This document shows, in pieces, positions 1-7,859 of a stretch of 26,742 bases of DNA. The position numbers and the translations under genes are program-made. Source of the stretch: a virus. Below the pieces are notes generated by a model that saw only the letters and a list, made by a program, of their open reading frames with translations, was not told the DNA's origin and searched no databases. The DNA is taken from the IMG/VR virus record IMGVR_UViG_3300012984_000031, positions 1 to 26,742 of that record. One strand, written 5' to 3'. Every line of letters starts with the position of its first letter. Position 1 is the stretch's first letter.

Positions 1-178
1 GAGCGCCAGGAACGTTCGGGGCAGCAAAGACTGCTGCTGCGGTAACACCAGCAATCGCTACGTTAACCCATTCTGACGAACTAATAGTGTTATCGCCGGT
101 TAGGGCTGCTACCATCGCAGAAACAACGGCAACGATAACTGCTACCACAGACTTCCAATAAGGCTTAATTGCGTCCAT
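1..178 (-). CDS. Putative holin, 3' end cut by the window edge
   Basis: Starts at ATG 178 and reads 59 codons to the window edge without a stop, so the C-terminus is missing. The protein begins MDAIKPYWKSVVAVIVAVVS and has two hydrophobic stretches, at about residues 10-26 and 38-52, separated by a short polar turn (GDNTISSSEW). The visible end is AAPNVPGA. Small size, a short charged N-terminus and two membrane segments fit phage holins, which make inner-membrane lesions that release or activate the endolysin. A strong Shine-Dalgarno (GGAGG, bases 190-186) lies 7 bases before the ATG and decides the start. The gene follows the metallophosphoesterase after 51 bases that hold a promoter and a hairpin over this ribosome site. 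It could be another small membrane protein of the lysis region; an endolysin, if adjacent, lies outside the window. Confidence 0.7.
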   Translation of the reverse strand, partial: MDAIKPYWKSVVAVIVAVVSAMVAALTGDNTISSSEWVNVAIAGVTAAAVFAAPNVPGA

Positions 179-186
179 TAAATAAC

Positions 187-213
187 CTCCAATCATAAGT
201 CTTTCAATTGGAG
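187..213 (-). promoter_or_regulatory. Hairpin sequestering the holin Shine-Dalgarno
   Basis: On the minus strand CTCCAAT (213-207) and ATTGGAG (193-187) are exact 7-base complements around a 13-base loop. The 3' arm contains GGAG of the GGAGG ribosome-binding site, so RNA read through from upstream genes should fold and hide it. No run of T follows, so it is not a terminator. The 5' arm overlaps the -10 box of the promoter described next. Confidence 0.55.
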
Positions 214-241
214 TATATCATGAAATCAATTAGTTTGTGAA
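212..241 (-). promoter_or_regulatory. Candidate sigma-70-type promoter for the holin gene
   Basis: Minus strand: -35 TTCACA (241-236), 18-base spacer, -10 TATACT (217-212) preceded by an extended -10 TGA. Each hexamer matches 5 of 6 consensus bases. The predicted start is near 206-205, in the loop of the hairpin. RNA from this promoter would lack the hairpin's 5' arm and have a free ribosome site. Confidence 0.5.
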
Positions 242-1147
242 CTTCTTTCCATCTAGGAAAAGCACATATCCCTCGTCAGTATTCCTGATTGGAATAAACT
301 GCAAATGAGCCTTGTCATTATCTACATGGGCAATTCCAAAGCCCTGCTCCCAAGACGGATTGATTGTATATCTAAGTCCGTATCCCTTAGGGTCGCACAA
401 ATGACCCGTACCCATGCCAACCAAGGACGACCGGGAGATTGGGTGGGACTTATACACTACCCCGCCCCGGTGGTCGTGGCCGCGTACTAGGCTGATATTA
501 TACTTTTCAATATCACCTCGTACCGCCAGCCCGGTGTCCGTTACAGTGGCCCCATGGTGTACATAGATATCAGCGAATCGCTTCTTTGGCGGTTCCTCGT
601 ACAACTCCCATGTAATACCGAGGTCGTCTAGACCCCATAGCATATTTGGGGTAATCTGGTCCACGTACTCGGGAGCCTTCTTATTCATGTACTTAAACAC
701 ACGAATATCATGGTTGCCTAAGGATGAATGCATGTCCGCGTTCTTGTGTTGCTTGCGAACGTCACCATAGAACTCGCTAGCGCCCTGGGCGTTTGCCTTA
801 ACGAAAGGCAGCGGATTGTATTCTCTAGGCAATGAAGGGGCCGCTGGCGGTGGAGGGGCCAAAAACTTCATTCGAGGGTCCAGAGCATCTACCTGCTTCT
901 GGTGCGCGGCGAGCGCCTTTTCATAATCTGCGACGACCTTTTCATCTTCCTTGTATTGCTTAGCAATTTGATTGAAGAACTCGTCGGTTGTGCCGGTGCT
1001 GAACTGACTATACTCTAGTTGGTCATCAATGTCACCAACGAAGTCGATTGCTTCTGGCTTCCACCATTTCATCGCCTTCATAAACAGTTCTACAGCGCGG
1101 CGGTCATGATACGGGATTTGTAGGTCTCCTACGAAAGCCCACTTCAT
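230..1147 (-). CDS. Calcineurin-like metallophosphoesterase
   Basis: A 305-residue protein with the ordered metal-binding motifs of the calcineurin-like phosphoesterase superfamily: GD (D8) near the N-terminus, GDIDD at about 38-42, GNHD at about 144-147, HHG near 197 and GHDH near 224. These enzymes use two metal ions to hydrolyse phosphomono- or diesters; the substrate cannot be told here. The first motif reads D-L-Q, not the usual D-x-H, with a His only at residue 14. A charged helical insert with a Pro/Ala run (PPPPAAP, about 98-104) separates the second and third motifs. The start is ATG 1147 with AAAGG seven bases upstream. It follows the membrane protein's stop by 3 bases and precedes the holin, so it belongs to the late operon. 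Possible roles are nucleotide or nucleic-acid processing; a part in lysis is only suggested by position. Confidence 0.85.
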   Translation of the reverse strand: MKWAFVGDLQIPYHDRRAVELFMKAMKWWKPEAIDFVGDIDDQLEYSQFSTGTTDEFFNQIAKQYKEDEKVVADYEKALAAHQKQVDALDPRMKFLAPPPPAAPSLPREYNPLPFVKANAQGASEFYGDVRKQHKNADMHSSLGNHDIRVFKYMNKKAPEYVDQITPNMLWGLDDLGITWELYEEPPKKRFADIYVHHGATVTDTGLAVRGDIEKYNISLVRGHDHRGGVVYKSHPISRSSLVGMGTGHLCDPKGYGLRYTINPSWEQGFGIAHVDNDKAHLQFIPIRNTDEGYVLFLDGKKFTN

Positions 1148-1150
1148 ATA

Positions 1151-1867
1151 TTACCTTTCTGTTTTTTTGCCGAACAACTGGTCTCGTAATGCACTCATAA
1201 ACTTCGCGTCCTTACGCTGCTTGTCCTTGTATCCAAGAATATAGCCAGCGTAGAGGCATCCGAATCCAGCCAACAGCACTGCTAGGACCGTAAGACTGAT
1301 TTCGGTTACATTCTCGACTACAGTCTCATCATCGGTATTGTCTACTACCGGGTCGCTAACGTTGGGGTCTACTGTAGCATCTTCACTACCGACCTGTCCA
1401 GTCACGGTTTCAGTTGCCGTCACCGTGGCCGTAGGACGCGCTGTGGGCAATTCTGACGGCTTCACAGTAATGGTTGGGCCTGGGACCCGAATGGTTTCTG
1501 TTTGCCCCGGAACGGTCGTCTCTGAGCCTGGTAGAGTTATCGTAGCGCCCGGTACGGTAACCGTTGCCCTAGGGCGTGGCGGTAACGTCACCGGAGGTAA
1601 TGTAACAGGCGGAAGAGTAACCGGAGGCAGTGTCACTGTCGGCAAGTCTACCACAGTATTCAGAAGTACAATACCAGCCGCCGTGCAACGAATTCTAACT
1701 TGGTCGAGTCCGACCTTTAGGTCCGTGCATTCAATAATAGGCTGTGGAGCCGCCGCCTGTGCGGGCGGCGGCTCACTGATTGACACTAAAAGCGGTGAGA
1801 GTGCCAAGATGCCTGTGGCTAATAGTAATTTCTTCAAGGTAGTTCGTCTGCTTTTTGGAAATTGCAT
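1151..1867 (-). CDS. Secreted, C-terminally membrane-anchored VTLPP-repeat protein
   Basis: A 238-residue protein of unknown function. It has a signal peptide (basic residues to about 13, hydrophobic to about 30, AxA-like site in PAQAAAP near 36-41), then a small domain with two Cys (ECTD and IRCT), a Thr/Val/Pro-rich extended region with four VTLPP repeats and further TVTVP/TITLP units, an acidic stretch, one transmembrane helix (about 191-212, ending GYILGY) and a basic cytoplasmic tail. Topology should be N-terminus outside, tail inside, with the Pro/Thr region spanning the wall. The ATG at 1867 overlaps the HNH gene by 34 bases and has no Shine-Dalgarno. A TTG at 1837 overlaps the HNH stop as TTGA and would give a 228-residue form. 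The longer form adds SRRTTLKK, a twin-arginine-like motif. Position beside the holin suggests a lysis or surface role such as spanin-like action or superinfection exclusion, unproven. Confidence 0.75.
   Translation of the reverse strand: MQFPKSRRTTLKKLLLATGILALSPLLVSISEPPPAQAAAPQPIIECTDLKVGLDQVRIRCTAAGIVLLNTVVDLPTVTLPPVTLPPVTLPPVTLPPRPRATVTVPGATITLPGSETTVPGQTETIRVPGPTITVKPSELPTARPTATVTATETVTGQVGSEDATVDPNVSDPVVDNTDDETVVENVTEISLTVLAVLLAGFGCLYAGYILGYKDKQRKDAKFMSALRDQLFGKKTER
1577..1636 (-). repeat. Four tandem VTLPP pentapeptide repeats
   Basis: Four consecutive 15-base units encode VTLPP. Each unit uses different synonymous codons (for example CTG, CTT, TTA for Leu and GTG, GTT for Val). The protein repeat is exact while the DNA has drifted, so the peptide sequence appears to be maintained by selection. 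Such Pro/Thr-rich repeats typically form stiff extended stalks crossing the cell wall. Confidence 0.85.
1747..1774 (-). other. Strong GC hairpin inside the signal-peptide coding region
   Basis: GAGCCGCCGCC (1747-1757) and its exact complement (1764-1774) form an 11-bp stem with a 6-base loop. It lies within codons for the signal-peptide cleavage region (EPPPAQAAAP). No T tract follows on the minus strand, so termination is unlikely. It may simply reflect Pro CCG and Ala GCG codons, or may slow translation just after the hydrophobic segment. Confidence 0.5.
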
Positions 1868-6496: not shown

Positions 6497-7323
6497 ACTG
6501 AGATAGGAATTCCATACTCTATTTCTTTAGCAATACCGGCGACCTTTGCAATCGGTGCCGGGGCAACCTTACGGGCCAACATCAAATACTCTGGATTGAT
6601 GCTGTCAGCATCCTCGATACGAATACCATCCCATAGAACGATGCTCGAACCGCCAGAGTTCGAAACAGTCACAATCTCAATTGTGTTGATGGTGCTCCAA
6701 TTAGGAGAGCCGGTCTGTAAGGCCGCGCTCTTCTGGAAGGAAGCAATATTGTATCCAGCCGCAGGGCTCGTTGCACTAAAGTAGTAATAATTTGAAGCGT
6801 CGGTCTTAAGCCTAACCGTGGCCGAGGCCACATTGGTGTTGGTATTATGGAATGCTAATGAAATAGTGTCGGCACCTGAATAACCGGACAGGTCTAGTTG
6901 TACACCTAAACTAGACGATTGAGTAGAAGAGGCAGCAGGGGCGTGCTTGATACCATCTGCACCGATTCGTGCATTAACAGTGTCCCAGATAGCACCGGAC
7001 CACGCCTCGTCACTCTGGTCGAAATCAGTTAGAATCCTAGAGCCGTAGCCTGCGGCTACGGCGTTTGTTGGCTGGGTAAACAGGCCAATCTCATAGATAG
7101 AACCAACCATTTCTGGCTCCAAGGTTCCCTTGAAGATAAGCAAGCCAGTTACATTATCATATGAGATTACGTCGATATCCACACGGGCGGTTTCAAACTG
7201 TAACATTGAATCAGTTGGCGTTTCGGCAGCGCTTCCAACACCAACCACGAGGGTTGATGCCAAATCTGCTCCACCGCCAGGTAGAAACTCTTTAATCCAT
7301 AACTTTCCATTGTCTGTTATCAA
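6493..7323 (-). CDS. Baseplate or minor tail protein
   Basis: A 276-residue protein. The first about 90 residues (LWIKEFLPGGGADLASTLVV to YEIGLFT) match the style of phage tail-collar or baseplate proteins that attach fibres. The middle (about 95-235) is a beta-sandwich-like region with LDLSGYSGADTISLAF and IVLWDGIRIED, resembling carbohydrate-binding jelly-roll folds. The end (AKVAGIAKEIEYGIPISV) resembles common C-termini of such tail proteins. The start is TTG 7323, overlapping the upstream stop as TTGA, with AAGG about 12 bases before it. No ATG is better placed. The stop overlaps the FN3 fibre start by four bases, so the two are translationally coupled and may assemble together. An exact family is not recognised. 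Confidence 0.7.
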   Translation of the reverse strand: MITDNGKLWIKEFLPGGGADLASTLVVGVGSAAETPTDSMLQFETARVDIDVISYDNVTGLLIFKGTLEPEMVGSIYEIGLFTQPTNAVAAGYGSRILTDFDQSDEAWSGAIWDTVNARIGADGIKHAPAASSTQSSSLGVQLDLSGYSGADTISLAFHNTNTNVASATVRLKTDASNYYYFSATSPAAGYNIASFQKSAALQTGSPNWSTINTIEIVTVSNSGGSSIVLWDGIRIEDADSINPEYLMLARKVAPAPIAKVAGIAKEIEYGIPISV

Positions 7324-7859
7324 ATCTGCTCGCCTTGCTCAATCTCATAATCGCTAGCAGCCGAAGGCTGTAGCGTCAACTTCTTGGTGTAAGAAAACTT
7401 TCCATTGTCTGCAACATCTACGACAACGTCAATCAACTGTCTACCGTTTACCATTCTAATGGTCTGACTAACAATCTCAATGTTTGCGGGCGGCGCAAGA
7501 CTATCGTCTTGGTCGTCCTTCTTCTTCTGATTGTTTTGCTTCTTAGCCTTAGCCTTAGTCTTGGACTTGGGCTTATTGTTCTTCTTAGGCTGAGTAGACT
7601 TGTCCTTCTTCTTCTTCTTCTGCTTTTCCTTGTTCTTCTTCTTGTTCTTGTTCTTGCCCTTCTTGCCCTTTTTCTTCTTCTTAGGCTTCTTCTTCTTTTT
7701 CTTCTTGGGCTTCTTTGGACCTTCGTTTTCTACCGGGTCCGGGCCTTCTGCATCTTCGGAAAAGTCATCATCTGCAATACCATCGTCAGTATACTCGACA
7801 CCCAGCAATTCTGGGGGTAGATAGTAGTTCTGGTCGAGTTGCTTCGCTCTAATACGCAT
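7320..7859 (-). CDS. Lysine-rich tail-tip protein
   Basis: A 179-residue protein in three parts. Residues 1-48 are mixed then acidic (DDDFSEDAEG). Residues 49-114 are a low-complexity basic stretch in which about 41 of 66 residues are Lys. From about 115 comes an acidic linker (DDQDD) and then a predicted beta domain (IEIVSQTIRMVNGRQLIDVV) to the end. The Lys codons are mostly AAG, giving a long purine-only tract on the coding strand. ATG 7859 has no Shine-Dalgarno; a TATAAT exactly six bases upstream suggests a leaderless start. It lies between the hub and a baseplate gene, and its stop overlaps the next TTG. The basic segment could bind teichoic acid, the acidic cell surface or DNA. Function is unknown; existence as a gene is supported by spacing and coupling. 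Confidence 0.8.
   Translation of the reverse strand: MRIRAKQLDQNYYLPPELLGVEYTDDGIADDDFSEDAEGPDPVENEGPKKPKKKKKKKPKKKKKGKKGKNKNKKKNKEKQKKKKKDKSTQPKKNNKPKSKTKAKAKKQNNQKKKDDQDDSLAPPANIEIVSQTIRMVNGRQLIDVVVDVADNGKFSYTKKLTLQPSAASDYEIEQGEQI
7500..7716 (-). repeat. AAG-rich purine tract coding polylysine
   Basis: The coding strand is almost all A and G over much of this stretch, with runs of AAG triplets (TTC on the plus strand, as in 7607-7620 and 7672-7712). It encodes the Lys-rich segment. Short triplet runs of this kind can vary in length by replication slippage, and a purine/pyrimidine mirror-like tract can form unusual DNA structure. Confidence 0.7.

Follow-up and report, generated by a model that had tools for sequence, protein, structure and literature searches.

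A possible promoter-in-hairpin gate on a probable holin gene in a phage fragment related to Streptomyces cluster BE

An extended -10 promoter was found within the 5' part of a predicted hairpin that covers the ribosome site of a probable holin gene, near one end of a 26.7-kb IMG/VR fragment (the window, by which we mean the whole stretch of DNA analysed) related to the Streptomyces cluster BE phages, family Stanwilliamsviridae. We consider it an evenly balanced question, on the basis of folding models, whether this arrangement gates the translation of the gene. RNA from the tail genes would read through into the membrane gene, and its Shine-Dalgarno (SD) sequence and AUG would pair with the -10 region and the bases preceding it, giving poor translation, whereas RNA started at about 205 would begin in the hairpin loop, without the 5' arm, and would be translated better. 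Expression of the gene would then be set by the local promoter. This reading rests on the sequence elements themselves, on a promoter that is conserved in relatives and on a difference between the predicted folds; that read-through occurs, where transcription starts, how translation responds and that the protein is a holin are what we infer. The features are as follows.

230-1147, minus strand: metallophosphoesterase gene, the last of the tail operon
236-241, minus strand: -35-like hexamer TTCACA, 4/6 of the consensus, with an 18-nt spacer, overlapping the end of the phosphoesterase gene
212-220, minus strand: extended -10 TGATATACT (TG at 220-219, TATACT at 217-212), with a homologous element in relatives
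205-206, minus strand: predicted transcription start, 6-7 nt after the -10, in the hairpin loop
206-213, minus strand: 5' arm of the stem over the SD, CTCCAATT, absent from RNA that begins at 205
187-194, minus strand: 3' arm of the SD-masking stem, GATTGGAG, covering four SD bases
186-190, minus strand: Shine-Dalgarno GGAGG, 7 nt before the ATG (178-176)
166-232, minus strand: whole read-through hairpin, from the fold of 260-150, with the AUG masked too
2-178, minus strand: small hydrophobic membrane-protein gene, probable holin, with its ATG at 178, running off the window end

The original prediction placed a 7-bp stem (213-207 with 193-187) over the SD, with the 5' arm overlapping the -10 at 217-212, and both the sequence and the fold agree with these coordinates: C213 to T207 form seven Watson-Crick pairs with A193 to G187, and a T206.G194 wobble is added. 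The start that it predicted, at about 205-206, does lie in the loop, and RNA from 205 would lose the 5' arm. The minimum free energy fold of 260-150 (-24.7 kcal/mol, z = -2.5; 3 of 200 shuffles were equally stable) contains the stem 213-206/194-187 and the outer helices 219-216/184-181, 224-220/178-174 and 232-227/171-166, the second of which pairs the AUG, and all four helices are predicted to be lost in RNA started at 205. A promoter scanner called the window promoter with 10 of 12 matches and with the TG. From its sequence it looks host-type, being an extended sigma-70/HrdB-like TGATATACT and not the T4 late box TATAAATA without a -35. An Rfam scan of window positions 1-1200 gave no match. 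A dual-start reading, in which translation would also begin six codons upstream, at the in-frame ATG at 196, was dropped; L002 has an in-frame stop there (checked by eye), and the homologs begin near 178.

Opening the segment from the SD through the AUG was calculated at 37 C to cost 13.2 kcal/mol in the read-through RNA and 7.8 in the local RNA of the window, and at 28 C 15.6 and 8.6, respectively. The direction was unchanged when the start was moved by up to 2 bases on either side or when 20-150 nt of coding sequence were included, with differences of 4.3-11.6. As a positive control, the identical computation for T4 gene e gave 14.8 for read-through RNA versus 3.5 and 1.2 for RNA from the two late promoters, and by these costs the modelled masking in the window is T4-like and the release weaker. 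The folding check that had been proposed thus came out mixed: the read-through hairpin forms and is longer than first described, the AUG included, but the local release falls short of that in T4. When the -10 and SD were fixed and the rest was shuffled (500 shuffles, with the read-through-minus-local opening cost as the statistic), the difference of 5.4 kcal/mol in the window had p = 0.084; the interaction energy had p = 0.15, and the pairing of the SD to pre-start sequence alone p = 0.22. By this switch measure the membrane-gene start is first of the 22 gene starts in the window, with the start at 2621 nearly equal (5.4 vs 5.3), and in Annadreamy all 25 GGAGG-led starts stay below 5.4. The evidence for the hairpin from the window in isolation is only suggestive.

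The gene order in cluster BE runs from the tail genes to HNH endonuclease, phosphoesterase, small membrane gene, zinc-ribbon, helix-turn-helix, DnaB helicase, primase and DNA polymerase, and the window shares with this junction/holin slot of the Stanwilliamsviridae the gene order, a homologous promoter and a homologous membrane protein. The endolysins are distant (Annadreamy gp21, 32 kb upstream; Samisti12 gp39 and gp44) and the neighbours are tail and replication genes; therefore the site is a tail/replication junction and not a lysis cassette. A scan of the window detected no convincing terminator between the phosphoesterase and membrane genes that would block read-through. A literature search with partial full-text coverage found neither promoter/hairpin control at the Stanwilliamsviridae junction/holin slot nor transcript data for the family. 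Elsewhere on the minus strand of the window, an HNH endonuclease (PF01844; 1834-2109) adjoins the tail genes and has the same position in relatives, 1151-1867 encodes a protein that has a signal-like N-terminus, contains VTLPPVTLPPVTLPP repeats and carries a membrane segment at its C-terminus but has no family match, and 7320-7859, between tail genes, encodes a 179-aa protein with long lysine runs (KKPKKKKKKKPKKKKKGKKGKNKNKKK).

The membrane protein of the window, whose homologs have 109-119 aa, matches only phrog_17055, of unknown function, and no Pfam family above cut-off, the r1t holin family PF16945 included; a search of GTDB genomes gave one weak match. In several relatives, however, a PF16945 r1t-type holin lies in the corresponding slot behind the homologous promoter (57.9 bits vs a cut-off of 26.9 for the slot protein of L007), and the slot protein is annotated as 'holin' in Wakanda, Muntaha, Circinus and BillNye. 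The slot and the promoter are common to these holins and the window protein, whereas the latter is not a Pfam member; that it is probably a holin is a good inference from position and synteny. Unrelated small membrane proteins fill the promoter slot, namely the window type, the r1t PF16945 type and the L051 and L070 types, and this variety looks like holin swapping behind a fixed promoter.

Related phages have an extended -10, TGnTATAAT or a close variant, at 35 loci; its distance to the SD is 9-22 nt (about 20 nt in most), and it is kept upstream of the small membrane or holin gene though the downstream genes belong to several unrelated membrane-protein types. This conservation is better backing for the promoter originally proposed here than a consensus scan. 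The -35 is weak throughout the relatives, so that the extended -10 is probably what the promoter depends on. In relatives, the homologous promoter heads the replication operon.

The SD-masking hairpin is patchy among the relatives, and is stronger and better conserved in some of them. The sister of the window in the phosphoesterase tree, L050 (SH-aLRT 94), has ACCTCCT/AGGAGGT around its -10, with opening costs of 9.2 vs 3.4 kcal/mol (p 0.09), a moderate case like the window itself, and the outgroup L073 has TTTTCCTCCA/TGGAGGAAAA, with 18.4 vs 4.3 kcal/mol (p 0.002), a strong one. Masking is also strong in the Boydwoodruffvirinae, which have AAGATAAGACCTCCCATGCTATAATGAAAGAAAAAGCAAGGGAGGTTAAGTCTT, with CCTCCC/GGGAGG in an 18-pair hairpin; the three folded (L009, L010 and L028) gave 15.9-22.5 vs 5-9 kcal/mol (p 0.002-0.004), and the switch amounts to 11-14 kcal/mol in L073 and this subfamily. 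The hairpin is kept in all sampled Boydwoodruffvirinae, even with an unrelated holin downstream, and nine distinct sequences all have the arm CCTCCC unchanged, with 97% of cells paired vs 37-58% when slid. Masking is weak in L049, L069 and L011; in L033 the SD pairs with pre-start sequence and the opening cost is unchanged. The stem is absent from L006, L008, L051, L070 and all of the Loccivirinae sampled (Annadreamy, Gilson and Wakanda). Because the stems of the window and L050 use different registers, there is no position-by-position conservation. Over 14 lineages, Fisher's method gave p = 0.0009, the signal coming mainly from the Boydwoodruffvirinae and L073; the other 12 lineages combined reach only about p 0.1. 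The conservation of the stem along with the SD, which had been set as a check, is thus divided: the Loccivirinae and L006 keep the promoter and SD without the stem, but in L050, L073 and the Boydwoodruffvirinae a stem masks the SD.

The same layout was found at other genes of the Boydwoodruffvirinae. In the whole genome of Samisti12, the holin start is second of 212 gene starts by the switch measure, and eight SD-led genes have a near-consensus -10 at a suitable spacing, with a large switch in three of them, the holin, gp192 and the LysM endolysin gp44; the enrichment of the arrangement is p 0.03 genome-wide. In Annadreamy, the arrangement is not enriched (Fisher p 0.43) and the holin ranks 113 of 161. 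At gp44 (L237:22780-22846) the sequence is ACCTCCTT-ATACTATTAATCG-AAGGAGGT, with the -10 in the loop and an 8-bp stem covering the SD, and this hairpin is kept in three other phages (L240-L242). The terminase start of Samisti12 (L238:20214, record 70214) has TGATATACT in the loop and a perfect 11-bp stem over the ribosome site. Among the relatives searched, this hairpin is present in all eight of the other Boydwoodruffvirinae with long records (L245-L252); the loop is shorter in L248 and L251, whose stem is intact, and in L251 a T-to-C change in one arm is matched by A-to-G in the other. Judged from these sequences, the terminase stem is the cleanest sign of selection on such hairpins, though a terminator reading is possible there too. 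In the Boydwoodruffvirinae holin hairpin itself there are seven one-sided G-U-type changes and zero two-sided ones, the shuffle control being uninformative; of the compensatory changes looked for in relatives, one appears in the terminase stem of L251 and none in this holin hairpin. Two more Samisti12 genes besides the holin, endolysin and terminase, both of unknown function, have a -10 by or in an SD-masking stem: gp192 (L239:1162, record 101162), already named above, and gp155 (L238:42541, record 92541), where the 5' arm overlaps the end of the -10 as in the window.

In the Loccivirinae, inverted repeats of another kind surround the -10. A 7-8-bp repeat, AACTACTC..GAGTAGTT, brackets the -10 upstream of the holin gene in Wakanda/Circinus-type phages (L005, L007, L017-L019 and L056-L060); in L060 both arms differ in a matching way, giving AGCTACCTC..GAGGTAGCT, and Gilson-type phages have GCTC..GAGC at the corresponding place. 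These repeats leave the SD untouched and its accessibility unchanged. In Annadreamy, the arms of AACTACTC..GAGTAGTT recur with a spacing of 11 nt at L013:6304-6328, upstream of another TGCTATAAT promoter. A scan of IMG/VR for ACTACTC-N11-GAGTAGT gave 94 matches, mostly on unrelated contigs, and was uninformative. The Loccivirinae repeat is possibly an operator, a processing site or a remnant.

Three other explanations of the window hairpin were weighed against a translational gate. The pyrimidine-rich promoter region may happen to complement GGAGG, so that the promoter is real and the stem functionless here; we take this chance pairing seriously, while holding it rather doubtful. It agrees with the shuffle values for opening cost and SD pairing in the window, with the score of the start at 2621 and with the stemless promoters and SDs of L006 and all of the Loccivirinae, but it fits poorly with the fold z of -2.5, with the masking of the AUG as well as the SD, and with the masking of the SD by different sequences in the sister L050 and the outgroup L073.

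That a phage regulator, such as the MerR-like protein whose gene lies downstream in relatives, binds an inverted repeat around the -10 and controls the promoter seems unlikely for the window. Such a DNA operator would suit the Wakanda/Circinus-type repeat, with its untouched SD, and the Annadreamy arms upstream of a second promoter, but the window arms do not match the Loccivirinae repeats. Furthermore, because the arm sequence and spacing vary widely by lineage (loops of 9 to about 29 nt) and 2-nt loop insertions leave the arms kept, an RNA structure is a better fit than a dimer site. It appears improbable that the tail/replication junction carries a weak intrinsic terminator or an RNA-processing site that overlaps the next promoter: GTTATTTA follows the window stem, A and T runs flank the Samisti12 terminase hairpin, and in relatives two operons meet here, but the scanner calls no terminator at the window site, no T-run follows the stem in L073, L050 or the Samisti12 endolysin hairpin, and loops of 11-29 nt with few G-C pairs make poor terminators. 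As a common explanation, an intrinsic terminator was rejected, since several lineages have no T-run.

If a translational gate exists, a delay of lysis is only one possible use of it; another is that holin synthesis is uncoupled from transcription of the tail operon, the amount being set only by the local promoter. The gene order of the relatives, with tail genes upstream and replication genes downstream, does not favour an early read-through and a late local promoter. With tail genes as the source of any read-through, and a promoter that looks host-type and in relatives heads the replication operon, the early/late order may be the reverse of that in T4, or irrelevant if the aim is to cap holin synthesis. 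More broadly, and only tentatively, we suggest that the Stanwilliamsviridae, large lytic phages of Streptomyces, and among them most clearly the Boydwoodruffvirinae, independently evolved promoter-in-hairpin gating that would keep selected genes (holin, LysM endolysin and terminase) untranslated on the read-through RNA of long co-directional operons and let them be translated only from their own host-type promoters. If so, there would be a simple and testable answer to how phages with very long one-way operons avoid making lysis proteins from read-through RNA, and the isolated Boydwoodruffvirinae, such as Samisti12 and Peebs, make the gating directly testable.

Promoter/hairpin control is known from T4 gene e (lysozyme), and likewise from T4 soc, 49 and I-TevI, with read-through early and the local promoter late (PMC3014915). 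In both gene e and the window (here in a predicted fold), the longer transcript hides the SD and AUG in a helix, the local promoter lies within the 5'-strand region, so that local RNA would escape, the gene is a lysis gene or probably one, and the predicted masking energy is similar (13 kcal/mol in the window and 15 in T4). The situation in the window is different in its unrelated phage family and host, in having a host-type extended -10 where T4 has the late promoter TATAAATA, in a read-through that would come from the tail operon, and in a putative holin, a membrane protein, where T4 has a lysozyme. In addition, the local RNA is less open in the window (about 8 kcal/mol) than in T4 gene e (1-3.5), and L073 and L050 are nearer to T4. 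The gene e-like switch originally proposed is therefore partly supported in its anatomy, with read-through RNA masked and local RNA more open in the models, but the local RNA of the window still costs about 8 kcal/mol to open; the switch as such is plausible, and a role in lysis timing is a candidate use by analogy with T4. If the broader suggestion holds, this T4 scheme has a counterpart in a family of actinobacteriophages that is unrelated to T4 and uses ordinary host-type promoters.
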